DNA of 64,000 nt from Hamadaea flava. GTDB lineage: Bacteria; Actinomycetota; Actinomycetes; Mycobacteriales; Micromonosporaceae. Under the pieces are notes generated by a model. It was not told the DNA's origin. It did no database searches and was given only the letters and a program-made list of their open reading frames with translations. This document shows positions 2,101 to 6,666 of the stretch, piece after piece. The position numbers and the translations under genes are program-made. The number at the start of each line of letters is the position of its first letter. Within the stretch, counting starts at the first letter, position 1. The stretch spans positions 3,286,001-3,350,000 of the forward strand of contig NZ_JAMZDZ010000001.1 in assembly GCF_024172085.1 (NCBI RefSeq). The letters are read 5' to 3'.

Positions 2101-2165
2101 GCTGCAGATCACGGTCACGCAGGCCAAGAGCGGCGAAGATTGCCTGCGTAACCGTGATCTGCAGC
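2101..2165. terminator. Long palindrome, family A, 3' of the MauE-like gene
   Basis: Arms 2101-2124 and 2142-2165 are 24 bases with one mismatch (GU-compatible in RNA) and a 17-base loop. The arm contains GATCACGG followed by ACGCA. It lies just downstream of the MauE-like gene on the minus strand, so it should act as its terminator. The arm sequence recurs at 14581 and 20596. No U tract follows. Confidence 0.7.
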
Positions 2166-2182: not shown

Positions 2183-3034
2183 TCAGACGGCGTACTCGGG
2201 TTGCGCGTGGGGTTCGAGGGCGGCGAGCGTACTGCCGTTGTCGTCCACGACCGCCGCCCGGACGGACTGCGGGTCGTAGCGCAGCCGCGGCACGGCGAAC
2301 ACCGCCGACGCGGGCTGGCCGGCGTACCGGACGGAGTAGACGAGCACGCGCCAGTCCGCCTCGTCCCAGTGCTCCCGAACGTCCGAGGTGACGCTGCGCG
2401 CCAGGTCCCGCCACGCGCTGCTCTTGTGCAGTTGGTCCACCGTCGACTCCAGCGGCACGTCGAACGCGCCGGGCGAGGCGAGCGGGTGGGACAGCCGGAC
2501 GTACAACCGGCGCAGCGGCATCAGCCAGCGCTCGTCGAACTCCGGGGAGAACACGACGATCGCGGCGGCCTCGACCAGCAGAAGCGCGACTCCGGCGACC
2601 GGATGATCGGCGAGCCCACCGGTCCACGCGGCACCGGAGGCGAGGGCCAGCAGCGATCCGGCCAGCATCAGCCCGGCCCGGCCGAAGCTACGGCCGTTGA
2701 TCGGAATGGGCTGCGCGCTCAGGCACCCACAGGACGCCTTCGGGTCCTTGATCTTCGCGTACGCCAGATAGCCGAGGAACCCGGTGCTCAGGGCGGTGGC
2801 GGCGACCGCCTCCAGGCGTACGAGTCCGGGCAGGACGAGCGCGGCGCCCAGCACCGCTTCGACCCCGGCGAGCGTGCGATAGGCGAGCACCGCCCGGTCT
2901 TCGCCCAGCAGCGGGGCGAGCGCCGTACGCCGCGCGTGCGCGGCCGCGTACCGGCTGAACACCTTGGCCTGCGCGGACCACAGCAGGACCGCGCCGAGCA
3001 GGAGTGGTTGCAGGGAACCGATCCACACAAGCAT
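2183..3034 (-). CDS. MauE/DoxX-like redox-associated membrane protein
   Basis: A 283-residue membrane protein. The N-terminal half has about four hydrophobic segments (residues 3-20, 53-72, 76-94, 118-135). A cytosol/membrane-interface CGC motif (Cys102, Cys104) sits in SCGCLSAQPIPINGRSF, as in MauE/DoxX redox proteins that help form disulfides or cofactors in exported proteins. From about residue 160 there is a soluble C-terminal domain of about 120 residues that I do not recognise. It is the last gene of a leftward cassette after a Tat-secreted protein and a 14-cysteine protein, which suggests that it oxidises or matures the cysteine-rich partner (inference). A strong terminator palindrome follows. 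Confidence 0.75.
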   Translation of the reverse strand: MLVWIGSLQPLLLGAVLLWSAQAKVFSRYAAAHARRTALAPLLGEDRAVLAYRTLAGVEAVLGAALVLPGLVRLEAVAATALSTGFLGYLAYAKIKDPKASCGCLSAQPIPINGRSFGRAGLMLAGSLLALASGAAWTGGLADHPVAGVALLLVEAAAIVVFSPEFDERWLMPLRRLYVRLSHPLASPGAFDVPLESTVDQLHKSSAWRDLARSVTSDVREHWDEADWRVLVYSVRYAGQPASAVFAVPRLRYDPQSVRAAVVDDNGSTLAALEPHAQPEYAV

Positions 3035-3102
3035 GACGACAACTCCCAGGTCGACGGCAGCCGGGCGGCCGCACCCGCGCCGGACTGCCTAGTGCGTACC
3101 GA

Positions 3103-3717
3103 TCAGTGGTTGTGCTGGATGGTGGAGGTGTAGAGGGTGGCGATCTCGATCTCGTTGGTGTCGGGGATCCATGCACCGATGACCTGCGCGTGCCGTCCTA
3201 CCTGGACCATCGTCATGTCGGCGATGGCCGGCGTGTTGTTGTAGGAGGCGGCCGTGACGCCCGGCACGACGTGTCCGATGATGCGCTTGCCCCGATGGTC
3301 GAAGTGGATCTTCTTCGGGGCCAGCGCCGCCACGTGGACCTGGATGTTCACGATGTTCACCCAGATCGCGTCGGCGGCGAGGGTGCCGTCGCCGAGCCGT
3401 ACGCCACGGGCGTAGAGACCGTCACCCACCGCGACCTTGTCGAGGCTGGTCGGGTGCAGCTTCCAGATGCTGGAGGCGTTGGTGACCCGGATCCGCCACA
3501 GGGTGCCGTCCGAGCCGGCGACCAGCAGCATGCCTTCGCTGATGCCGGTGACCCGGCCTTCGGCGAAGTTCGGGTCGGGCGCACCCGGTTCGATGTCGTC
3601 GCCCTTGGCGAACGCCGCCTCCGGCGCCAGCGAGCCGAGCGCGGTCGCGCCGACGAGCGAGGCGCTGCCGAGCACGGCCGAGGTGAGCAGGGACCGGCGG
3701 TCCATGTTGAGAGCCAT
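3103..3717 (-). CDS. Tat-secreted protein with a DUF5666-like OB-fold domain
   Basis: A 204-residue protein. The N-terminus carries a twin-arginine signal (MDRRSLLTSAVLGSAS) ending near AFA at residue 45. The mature part has short beta repeats of the type GRVTGISEGMLLVAGSDG, followed by GDGLYARGVRLGDGTLAADAIW, which resembles DUF5666 OB-fold proteins, and a His-containing C-terminus (QHNH). The ATG at 3717 is chosen because GGGAGGG stands about eight bases upstream; an upstream in-frame start lacks a ribosome site. It begins 13 bases after the stop of the cysteine-rich gene. Export folded by Tat would let it carry the signal-less neighbour across the membrane (inference). Confidence 0.75.
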   Translation of the reverse strand: MALNMDRRSLLTSAVLGSASLVGATALGSLAPEAAFAKGDDIEPGAPDPNFAEGRVTGISEGMLLVAGSDGTLWRIRVTNASSIWKLHPTSLDKVAVGDGLYARGVRLGDGTLAADAIWVNIVNIQVHVAALAPKKIHFDHRGKRIIGHVVPGVTAASYNNTPAIADMTMVQVGRHAQVIGAWIPDTNEIEIATLYTSTIQHNH

Positions 3718-3730
3718 CGTCAATCCCTCC

Positions 3731-4141
3731 CTACACCACATCGATGTACGCCGGCCTCAGCCCGTACGACAGGCTGGAGATGGCACTGAACGCCGCGGGC
3801 GTCAGGTCGATGACGCGGTTCGATCCGCAGACCGATCCGCAGCAGGTGCGCTCGCCGCAGAACAGGTCGGTCTGCGGGCCGCAGTCGGCGATCGTCGTGC
3901 CGACCTTCTGCCCCGTGCACCGGTTGGTCGTGTAGTGGCGGAACCCGCAGGTCCGCCGAGCCAGACCTTCACCGCAGGCCTCGGGGTTGGTGATCGCGTG
4001 ACAGGCGTCGGAGGTGTTCGGCCAGGCGTGTTGCCGGCTGCCTGAGTTGCAGGTGCCACAGGCGCCGTGCCCCGCCGAGCCGCAGGGTCCCCACGAACTG
4101 CCGCAGCAGAACCATGAGACCTCGCCGTAGAACCCGGCCAT
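3731..4141 (-). CDS. Cysteine-rich protein (14 Cys), no signal peptide
   Basis: A 136-residue protein with 14 cysteines spread over its first 105 residues, including FCCGSSWGPCG, ACGTC and ERTCCGSVCGS, followed by a cysteine-free tail. The even number suggests a disulfide-knotted fold, yet there is no signal peptide, which is odd for a disulfide protein in the cytosol. Start supported by AAGGAG seven bases upstream. It is the first gene of a cassette with a Tat substrate and a MauE-like membrane oxidase. The combination loosely recalls methylamine dehydrogenase, whose Cys-rich light chain needs MauE, but I see no convincing alignment and no heavy chain. Metal binding is an alternative. Function unknown. 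Confidence 0.75.
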   Translation of the reverse strand: MAGFYGEVSWFCCGSSWGPCGSAGHGACGTCNSGSRQHAWPNTSDACHAITNPEACGEGLARRTCGFRHYTTNRCTGQKVGTTIADCGPQTDLFCGERTCCGSVCGSNRVIDLTPAAFSAISSLSYGLRPAYIDVV

Positions 4142-4197
4142 GCGCTACTCCTTTCAGGATGGGGGATTCTCCTGGGAGCGTTCGATGGCCATCGACA

Positions 4198-4220
4198 CTT
4201 ATCGCAATCATGGCGATAAG
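4198..4220. promoter_or_regulatory. Palindromic operator upstream of the Cys-rich cassette
   Basis: Perfect inverted repeat CTTATCGC, seven-base spacer, GCGATAAG, located 57-79 bases upstream of the Cys-rich ATG. It sits in a relatively AT-rich stretch that should hold the promoter. The symmetry and spacing fit a dimeric TetR, MarR or GntR-type regulator; none is encoded beside it. Confidence 0.6.
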
Positions 4221-4246
4221 ATCGCTGTTAGTCAATCCTTAACGAT

Positions 4247-4999
4247 TCACAATTCCTGGACGACAATGTCGAACCCCTTGGGCGTCGGCTCGACGAGATA
4301 CTTCAGGTCGCGCAACGTCCCGAGCAGCTCCTCCGTCGTCTGCGGCCGCGCGCCCGACAGGAGCAGATCCCGCACGACCCGGCCCTTGGTCGCCTTGTTG
4401 AAGTGGCTCACCACCATGCGCTTGCCGTCGCGCTCCTGCAGCACGCGTACCGCCACCTGCTCGCGGGGCGTCCAGGTCGCCGCGTAGGCGCCGGACCGCA
4501 GGTCAAGCACCAGCTCGTCCCGGACCTCGCGGTCCAGCGCCGGGCTCAAGGCTTTCTTCCAGTACGCCGTGAGCCCACCCACGGGCGGGAGATTCACCCC
4601 GATCGAGCAGCGGTACGGCGGGATCTCGTCGTCGAGCCGGACGACGCCCCACAGGCCGGACGAGACCAGGATCTTCCCGGTGTCGATCTCGGACGGCAGG
4701 CTCGCCAGATCGAGGTGGTCGTAGAGCACCCCGGTGTAGACGTGCCGCGCCGGCAACGTCTGCGCGGCCGGCAGATCGGCGTTGCGAGCCAGCTCGTCCC
4801 GCTGGCCCTCGCTGAGCCCGAGCGTCGTCAGCGCCTTCGCCTGGCCGGCCTTGCTCTTCGCCGAGCACAGCTTGACCAACGCCTTCAGCACACGTTCGCG
4901 CGACCGGCGCAGCTGCGGCAGGAACAGCGAGTCGTGGTCGACCGGTGCGCCGGAACCGGCGGCGGCCTTCCCCTCCGACGGCGGCAGCAGGATGAACAC
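4247..4999 (-). CDS. yaaA: Peroxide stress protein YaaA (UPF0246/DUF328)
   Basis: A 250-residue protein of the YaaA family, which limits intracellular iron-driven damage during hydrogen peroxide stress and has DNA-binding ability in E. coli. The family hallmark start ILLPPSEGK is present at residues 3-11, as are VSSGLWGVVR and the C-terminal NKATKGRVVR. The length matches the family. The gene starts ten bases after the stop of the upstream Nudix gene, so the two probably form an operon; a damage-response or nucleotide-clean-up partnership is plausible. Confidence 0.9.
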   Translation of the reverse strand: MFILLPPSEGKAAAGSGAPVDHDSLFLPQLRRSRERVLKALVKLCSAKSKAGQAKALTTLGLSEGQRDELARNADLPAAQTLPARHVYTGVLYDHLDLASLPSEIDTGKILVSSGLWGVVRLDDEIPPYRCSIGVNLPPVGGLTAYWKKALSPALDREVRDELVLDLRSGAYAATWTPREQVAVRVLQERDGKRMVVSHFNKATKGRVVRDLLLSGARPQTTEELLGTLRDLKYLVEPTPKGFDIVVQEL

Positions 5000-5547: not shown

Positions 5548-6666
5548 TTACAGCGCCGCCAGGATCGCGGTGAGGACCTTGCGGGCGGTCGCCTCGTGCT
5601 TCGCGTACGCGTACGGATAGGCCGAGCCCTGAACCGCCTGGGCCGCGAGGGTCAGCTCCATGTTCTGCCAGCCGGAGACCCTCTTCAGCGCCTGGAAGAA
5701 CTTCGTCGAGGAGTAGGTCGTGTTCATGATCTGCTTGACCGTGCCCCAGCCCATGCTGGTCCGCTGCTGGAACAGTCCGCAGGAGTCGTAGTCCACCGAG
5801 CTGCCCTCGTGCGGGTAGTCGAGCGACTCCGGCACAGCCGAGCTGGCCTGGTTGTAGAGGTCGCTCTCCTGCATGGCGGTCATGATGCCGACGAGCAGCC
5901 CACGCTGCGCCACGCCCAGCTGCTGCCCGGTCTTGACGACGGTCAGCGCGTTGTTCATCTGCTTCTGGTCGAGCCCGGCGACCGGTTTGACCGAGGTCAC
6001 GACCTTCTTCACGGTCGGCGACGGCGAGGGCGTCGCGCTGACCGTCGCGCTCGGCGCCGGGCTGGCCGACGTCGACTCCGCCACCCGAGGGGCGAACCGG
6101 TCGGCGGCGTTGGCGACGGAGTTCCGGTCGGCGAGCTGCTGCGCCGCGTTGTCCAGCTGCGCCGGCGTACCCCGCTGGCTGGCCACGACCGAGACACCGA
6201 GCAGCGCGATCAGGCCGAGGGCGACGACGCGACCGGCCTTCGCCGAGCCGTGCAGTGTGCGTACGGGGGCGACGCCCGGGGTCAGCGGCCCGGCCGGGGT
6301 CAGGTATCGCTCCGCCGACTCCGTCGCCAGCTGGGTCGCTTCGGCGGTCGCCGCCTTGCCGGTGGCTTTCCTCGCGCGCCTCGGCTTCTCGTCTCCAGCC
6401 TTCGCGTCTCGCGGCTTCGCGTCTCGCGTCATCGCGTCTCGCGTCATCGCGTCCACCGGCATCGAACCCGTCGGCTTCGCGTCCGTCGGCTTCGCGTCCG
6501 CCGGCTTCGCCGATTTCGCCAGCCGGTGCCGGCCGGTCTCTCCGTCGGTTCGCTCCTCCCGAATGCGGTCGAGGAAGAACGTCTGGGTGTCGGTCCAGAG
6601 ATCGGGTTTGGGGGGCTGCGTACGAGGGCTGGGTCGACCGTCATGGTCGTCATGCTGGGGGCGCAT
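5548..6666 (-). CDS. Membrane-anchored lysozyme-like (transglycosylase-fold) protein
   Basis: A 372-residue protein. Residues about 45-95 are low complexity with imperfect DAKP/DAMT repeats rich in Lys, Asp, Ala and Pro. A single membrane segment (VVALGLIALLGVSVVAS, about residue 150) follows. A Thr/Ser/Pro linker leads to a C-terminal domain of about 140 residues, typical of actinobacterial lysozyme-like proteins: MQESDLYNQAS with a candidate catalytic Glu, then DYDSCGLFQQRTSMGWGT. This domain usually cleaves or binds cell-wall glycan outside the cell. No NlpC or M23 partner domain is fused. Start is by position only, as no clear ribosome site precedes it. Confidence 0.75.
   Translation of the reverse strand: MRPQHDDHDGRPSPRTQPPKPDLWTDTQTFFLDRIREERTDGETGRHRLAKSAKPADAKPTDAKPTGSMPVDAMTRDAMTRDAKPRDAKAGDEKPRRARKATGKAATAEATQLATESAERYLTPAGPLTPGVAPVRTLHGSAKAGRVVALGLIALLGVSVVASQRGTPAQLDNAAQQLADRNSVANAADRFAPRVAESTSASPAPSATVSATPSPSPTVKKVVTSVKPVAGLDQKQMNNALTVVKTGQQLGVAQRGLLVGIMTAMQESDLYNQASSAVPESLDYPHEGSSVDYDSCGLFQQRTSMGWGTVKQIMNTTYSSTKFFQALKRVSGWQNMELTLAAQAVQGSAYPYAYAKHEATARKVLTAILAAL

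Follow-up and report, generated by a model that had tools for sequence, protein, structure and literature searches.

The 64,000-nucleotide stretch of the Hamadaea flava genome analysed here (contig NZ_JAMZDZ010000001.1, positions 3,286,001 to 3,350,000; hereafter the window) carries three leftward genes, which we call P1, P2 and P3 and which almost certainly form one functional unit. They encode a cysteine-rich protein that lacks a leader and is predicted, with very little doubt, to have a double-psi beta-barrel fold, a partner that is very probably a substrate of the twin-arginine translocation (Tat) system, and a membrane protein of the MauE family. The best explanation of the whole, to which we give an even chance, is a self-contained unit for the maturation and Tat export of P1. 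The three open reading frames (ORFs) were found as an earlier note on this DNA (the original prediction) had described them:

3731..4141, minus strand: P1, ORF for a leaderless protein of 136 amino acids with 14 cysteines, predicted to be a double-psi beta-barrel
3103..3717, minus strand: P2, 204 amino acids, with a twin-arginine motif and a DUF5666-like body, beginning 13 bases past the P1 stop codon
2183..3034, minus strand: P3, MauE-family membrane protein of 283 amino acids, with a Cys-Gly-Cys motif and a soluble C-terminal region of about 115–120 residues

By searching 200 genomes of the family we identified P1 in 48, as a single copy in each, and P2 and P3 in the same 48. Such searches score only so many candidates in each genome, and some presences may be overlooked. 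Outside the 48 genomes, P2 was seen as a fragment in one genome (G119) and as a match confined to the signal region in another (G014), and P3 was seen in G119 and as three weak matches (E 2e-7 to 2e-5). Weak matches aside, the single case of P2 or P3 without P1 is therefore G119, where a deletion has removed the whole of P1 together with the first half of P2 (locus L128) and P3 is still open. This deletion is a natural loss of the unit. Of 345 genomes sampled from the class, four, the window's own included, had a strong P1 match (E < 1e-50), and the same four had a P2 match; three further P1 matches were weak (E 9e-5 to 4e-3). The original prediction had looked to co-occurrence of the three families. 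They occur together in 48 of 48 family genomes, with which the class sample agrees for P1 and P2. Two of the outcomes named as refuting it did not arise: P1 homologues standing alone were not seen in the genomes and loci searched, and the P1-P2-P3 neighbourhood was conserved in a constant order.

That order was present in 30/30 family loci, again counting the window's own. In a set of named loci, the best 80 of the 102 P1 relatives found, P1 and P2 stood in order in all 80 and were followed by P3 in 79; at the exception (L069) the contig ends 95 bases past the P2 match. Within a large genus of another family 18 of 199 genomes were positive for P1, all 18 had P1 with P2 and 16 also had P3; the remaining two loci are truncated. 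Some species recur in more than one of these genome and locus sets, and the sets are not independent. Across the 80 named loci the gap between P1 and P2 is −11 to 17 bases, the P2 start being a projection from the match, so that the pair is tightly packed. Beyond P1–P3, a comparison of neighbours in 21 of the 80 loci (ORFs of at least 110 amino acids, E 1e-20) found no ORF common to more than four of 13 genus labels; other mau genes are likewise absent by this comparison. The mean column identity is 84 per cent for P1, 76 per cent for P2 and 64 per cent for P3 (19, 19 and 14 rows, from differing sets), and the apparently slower change of P1 than of its partners suggests a demanding function.

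The named hosts are Hamadaea, Micromonospora, Catellatospora, Plantactinospora, Asanoa, Actinorhabdospora, Phytomonospora, Kribbella, Nonomuraea, Sphaerisporangium, Streptosporangium and Thermoactinospora, to which one record labelled Streptomyces and one unclassified Micromonosporaceae genome are added. A sample of 396 genomes of the phylum gave no strong P1 match except the window's own, and the unit is thus patchy. Five weak matches in this sample (E 9e-4 to 6e-3) were set aside: three are barrel domains that end larger proteins and two look spurious.

The barrel fold predicted for P1 is well supported. The Pfam model DPBB_1 matched 43 of 43 P1 members at E ≤ 1 (best 3e-7) and was the sole Pfam match of the window's P1 at E ≤ 5; among the DPBB matches of its own genome this P1 ranks third and weakest, behind two clear ones. 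An AlphaFold2 model computed from an 83-row alignment had a predicted local distance difference test score (pLDDT) of 83.4 and a predicted template modelling score (pTM) of 0.75, with the cysteine-rich stretch at about residues 11–30 its least certain part (block means 61 and 68; residues 16–19 below 50). Searching with this model, Foldseek returned at E < 0.001 the loosenin PcaLOOL12, PA4485, kiwellins, expansins, a cyanophage baseplate protein and the Streptomyces papain inhibitor (SPI), with an E of 1.8e-6 for loosenin 9ce9. In VIA-align comparisons the model superposed on PA4485 (4avr) with Z 13.8 and 1.5 Å over 93 residues; Z was 11.7 for the baseplate domain, 11.5 for loosenin, 11.1 for kiwellin, 9.4–10.8 for expansins, 10.3 for SPI (94 residues) and 8.8 for a barwin-like protein. 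P1 is the cysteine-rich, leaderless protein of the original prediction, and it is almost certainly not of an unknown type: DPBB_1 matched every member and AlphaFold2 models a barrel.

Asp86 and Asp112 are invariant in the 83 P1 rows. In a weak sequence match (E 0.42) Asp86 aligns with the aspartate of the INDRGP motif of PA4485, and the two proteins also share an Ile-Asp-Leu/Val stretch before the last helix. Members of the double-psi beta-barrel family (expansin, RlpA, loosenin) have a conserved aspartate in the barrel cleft, and we take Asp86 to occupy the position of the expansin/RlpA residue; we likewise count P1 as an RlpA-type barrel. P1 appears to share its fold with PA4485, loosenin PcaLOOL12, bacterial expansins, kiwellin and SPI and is single-domain, as are loosenin and SPI. 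Strict expansins carry a second, C-terminal domain, CBM63, and no such domain was found in P1, which has one domain in its 136 amino acids by Pfam and by the model. An identity of P1 as a GH45 or a metal protein was considered and not favoured. Family members are usually exported by their own signal peptide, and the best-known proteins of this fold are exported, as are PA4485, loosenin, kiwellin, expansins and SPI. P1 differs from them in having no signal peptide, in its 14 cysteines, in an extra cysteine-rich loop at about residues 11–36 and in its fixed Tat-signal and MauE partners.

To examine the lack of a leader we used 148 matched loci, which gave 119 unique P1 sequences; no sequence was excluded for length. 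In all 119 only 7–22 residues precede the conserved (S/T)WFxCG core motif, too few for an ordinary leader. Of the ten-residue stretches ahead of the core, the most hydrophobic averages 1.26 on the Kyte-Doolittle scale. The start of the relatives lies at the same place, or 9–14 codons earlier in Nonomuraea, Sphaerisporangium, Streptosporangium and Thermoactinospora. In the window an in-frame TAG stands two codons upstream of the P1 ATG, so no leader has been overlooked there; the ORF, the cysteine count and this upstream stop all agree with the 14-cysteine protein without signal peptide that had been described. The core of 14 cysteines is intact in 118 of the 119 sequences, and in the sole exception (L120) C12 and C20 are missing jointly. 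An N-terminal cysteine occurs in 17 sequences, always paired with a cysteine at 79 or 81, and the other 102 lack both; L158 is without both, although its genus otherwise carries them. Such paired gains and losses are more in keeping with disulfides than with metal binding.

For P2 we compared 121 unique sequences of 151–289 amino acids, their starts chosen by script. In the window P2 has RRSLL, then a hydrophobic stretch, then AFA. The motif RRx[LFVMI][LF] lies inside the first 60 amino acids in 120 of the 121 (the one without it, L148, has a probably miscalled start), and in every sequence the first 45 residues include 12 consecutive ones whose mean hydropathy is 1.50 or higher. Cysteine is absent past residue 40 in 86 of them. 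On this pattern we regard P2 as very probably a Tat substrate, and its signal has a weak likeness to the Tat signals of known substrates (E 0.4–1). The start 13 bases past the P1 stop and the twin-arginine motif are as originally proposed, but the OB fold is weakly supported: an OB-fold nucleic-acid model matched 2 of 19 P2 proteins (best 0.018) and DUF5666 matched 18 of 19 at E ≤ 1 (best 1.3e-4). We also considered P2 as two tandem copies of one domain and rejected this after a profile comparison of its halves (probability 0.5 per cent).

There is good support for placing P3 among the MauE proteins (Pfam MauE, E 3.2e-14; 53.8 bits, the cut-off being 27), and the Cys-x-Cys expected of such a membrane protein is a CGC at residues 102–104. 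This Cys-Gly-Cys is invariant in 94 of 94 rows, that is, in 93 unique sequences of 231–339 amino acids whose stop lies inside the locus and in the P3 of the window. Averaged over the rows, basic residues are found in the loops at 21–50 and 94–118 and beyond 170, and few in the other loops. By the positive-inside rule this charge pattern gives five spans with the N-terminus out, the C-terminus in and the Cys-Gly-Cys inside, and we read the motif as lying on the cytoplasmic side. P3 resembles the MauE of methylamine utilisation in its Pfam match and in a CxC past the third predicted membrane span. It differs in that the unit holds no other mau genes, in the 115–120 or so C-terminal residues past the MauE match, and in its partner, which would be a barrel instead of the light chain of an amine dehydrogenase.

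In the loci compared, a leaderless P1 is encoded beside a P2 with a Tat signal, as in a Tat hitchhiker pair. We infer the binding of P1 to P2, and the export, oxidation and target of P1, as follows. P1 would be a single-domain barrel of the expansin/loosenin/RlpA/SPI type, probably with about seven disulfides and with its extra cysteine-rich loop after the first strand. P2, made from the same operon, would bind the folded P1 and take it through the Tat translocase; that P1 rides on P2 in this way is slightly favoured. P3 would supply or shuffle the disulfides of P1, and some action of P3 on these disulfides we consider rather likely. With the Cys-Gly-Cys of P3 on the cytoplasmic face, and Tat accepting folded proteins, oxidation may come before transport. 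The exported P1 would most likely act on a glycan of the cell wall or the environment through the conserved Asp86 site. A fold of exported type, together with the paired cysteine changes, makes it sensible to suppose that P1 is exported with P2, and the lack of any intact P2 without P1 in the 200- and 345-genome samples fits a dedicated escort. Taken as a whole, the original interpretation is partly supported, and an inward Cys-Gly-Cys would change it in that oxidation may precede export. A more specific version, in which a MauE-type P3 with an inward Cys-Gly-Cys oxidises the barrel at the cytoplasm before it is handed to a private Tat escort, pre-export disulfides being the very purpose of the unit, we regard as unlikely and advance tentatively.

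There are precedents for such transport. In Streptomyces MelC1 carries the leaderless tyrosinase MelC2 through Tat (PMC2758597, available text), and according to the available text of PMC10924467 hydrogenases provide another case of hitchhiking. As in MelC1/MelC2, the leaderless product and its Tat-signal partner are here encoded side by side in one operon (PMC2758597, same text). MelC1 is required for copper loading and, in the mel operon as described there, no MauE is present. The likeness drawn here is one of gene arrangement.

Several observations weigh against a maturation and export unit of this kind. In the MelC operon, as far as that description goes, the helper gene comes first, whereas here the leaderless P1 gene does. 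The window's P1 scores 20 bits, below the DPBB_1 gathering score of 28.8. Its second-best fold match is the cyanophage baseplate domain, and cytosolic barrels such as p97 N-domains reach Z of about 7 against it, so that the fold by itself is no proof of an external location. The Pfam TAT_signal model matched only one of 19 P2 proteins at E ≤ 1. G119 retains an open P3 after the loss of P1. In two further MauE proteins encoded by this genome the CxC likewise lies beside basic residues, so the cytoplasmic placement is, by a crude rule, a family trait and not specific to P3. The paired cysteine changes represent few independent events. Finally, 67 of the 119 P1 sequences have an extra cysteine at 131 and four have one at 6, and the cysteine total is odd in 67, so that not every cysteine can pair inside one chain.

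Two alternatives each seem to us somewhat unlikely. In the first, P1 and P2 work together outside the cell, which P1 reaches through lysis or some other leaderless export path; P2 would be exported through Tat in its own right, as a separate partner, and P3 would oxidise P1 on the outer face once it has left the cell. P2 does have its own Tat motif, and the linkage of P1 and P2 does not prove that they bind. The presumed substrate of MauE is periplasmic, as this alternative would have it. A disulfide role suggested for MauE is mentioned in the available text of PMC7794033. However, the cassette has no sign of an export path besides Tat, and the basic residues flanking the Cys-Gly-Cys loop favour its inner face. 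The second leaves the proposed export scheme unchanged and makes P1 a protease inhibitor like SPI, an actinobacterial single-domain barrel that is among its nearest folds. Here PA4485 and loosenin outscore SPI, and the invariant Asp86 presumably sits where expansins and RlpA have their aspartate. The conserved aspartate and the likeness to PA4485 and loosenin speak for action on a glycan or the wall rather than for protease inhibition.

An improbable alternative is that P1 is a cytosolic cysteine-rich protein, binding metal or acting in redox, that P2 and P3 serve from the membrane side. The absence of a leader from all 119 P1 sequences, the odd cysteine number of 67 of them and the cytosolic location of some double-psi barrels would all suit it. 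Most of the nearest folds, however, belong to exported proteins, some P1 cysteines come and go pairwise as disulfides would, and the constant Tat-signal neighbour is left unexplained.

The weakest alternative takes P1 as a precursor like those of ribosomally synthesised and post-translationally modified peptides (RiPPs), with P3 as the modifying enzyme. The model for this would be decRiPPter, which reports three candidate families from Streptomyces in which a MauE homologue is clustered with a predicted precursor that has eight or more cysteines (PMC7794033, available text). These resemble the cassette in clustering MauE with a small cysteine-rich protein; compared by description only, they differ from it in the absence of any mention, in that text, of a Tat partner. 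We find this alternative very improbable, as decRiPPter by design scanned only proteins below 100 amino acids (PMC7794033, available text), whereas P1 has 136 and is a folded globular domain in the model.

The three-gene system is real and unusually tight; as far as we searched it is undescribed, and it is built of known parts. No description of a barrel, a Tat partner and MauE in combination was found among the papers listed by a literature search with most subscription papers outside its coverage. That search returned nothing on MauE with twin-arginine and cysteine-rich, nor on double-psi beta-barrel with twin-arginine in actinobacteria, and for MauE with double-psi only work on RNA polymerase. 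If the proposed export unit is real, it would be a cofactor-free instance of Tat hitchhiking, and its cysteine-rich, expansin-like proteins would make up a class not recognised so far in filamentous soil actinobacteria. It would also offer a defined substrate for asking what MauE-type proteins do, which is to our knowledge an open question.

The non-coding features around the cassette are:

4207..4235, minus strand: predicted cassette promoter, sigma-70-like, TTGACT-N17-CATGAT (consensus scan: one hit, against a mean of 0.2 in shuffles)
4198..4220, no strand: palindrome CTTATCGC-N7-GCGATAAG of the original prediction, bracketing the −10 element; not a conserved operator
4182..4195, no strand: perfect 14-bp palindrome TCGATGGCCATCGA, in the P1 leader
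2101..2165, minus strand: hairpin after P3, likely a terminator or repeat (arms 2101–2124 and 2142–2165)

A similar TTGAC/−10 pair, by a pattern written after the sequences had been viewed, lies upstream of P1 in 26 of the 80 named loci: 15/15 in Micromonospora, 3/3 in Plantactinospora, 6/8 in Catellatospora, 2/3 in Hamadaea and 0/51 in the others. The perfect palindrome CTTATCGC-N7-GCGATAAG is indeed present ahead of the cassette and is the sole perfect copy in the 8.86-Mb genome. The idea that it is the cassette's own operator was not supported: it overlies the −10 element, it is one of many inverted repeats and it decays within the genus. Two Hamadaea loci each differ from it at one arm position, and H. 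tsunoensis has lost it. Inspected by eye, the upstream stretches of other genera did not contain it. Perfect 8-bp inverted repeats with spacers of 0–20 number 66 in the window, and the counts after three block shuffles are 49, 50 and 44; for a spacer of exactly 7, the window has 4 and the shuffles have 1, 3 and 4. The three-gene unit is far beyond chance, and this palindrome alone is not.

A better candidate for a control site, to judge by its recurrence, is TCGATGGCCATCGA. A CGATGG(G)CCATC element like it stands upstream of P1 in 11 of the 80 loci, from Hamadaea, Catellatospora, Actinorhabdospora and Phytomonospora, and had no match in 1.32 Mb of flanking sequence, the pattern again having been chosen after the sequences were viewed. 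Separately, a degenerate inverted repeat like GAAANNTTTC recurs at about −85 to −125 upstream of P1 in several of the loci L032–L111, and is similarly placed in Catellatospora, Plantactinospora, Kribbella and Asanoa.

The 24-bp hairpin said to follow P3 is real, with a stem of 24 pairs including one G-U pair (−50.2 kcal/mol, z −9.1), but it is not specific to the cassette, part of its arm being dispersed in the genome. The 14-base arm sequence ACCGTGATCTGCAG has 39 copies in the 8.86 Mb, 37 of them at other places. Twelve of the 39, among them the two in the window, form six opposed pairs spaced 49 bp. The ACCGTGATCTGCAG hairpin is likely a dispersed palindromic repeat or a shared terminator.

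Two of the P1 records call for comment. In L048 (Streptomyces sp. SID13031) P1 and its leader closely resemble those of Kribbella catacumbae (L059), and the record name may be wrong. NZ_LT559118.1 (L159), an 11.85-Mb record of Nonomuraea gerenzanensis labelled as a plasmid, is probably a chromosome, and its P1 sits where the collection has no annotated feature. In the window the cassette's neighbours are a YaaA-family peroxide stress gene (4247–4999), a ROK-family gene and a long ORF with no clear family (788–1948 and 5548–6666). The N-terminal half of the long ORF has recurring short words of Asp, Ala and Lys.

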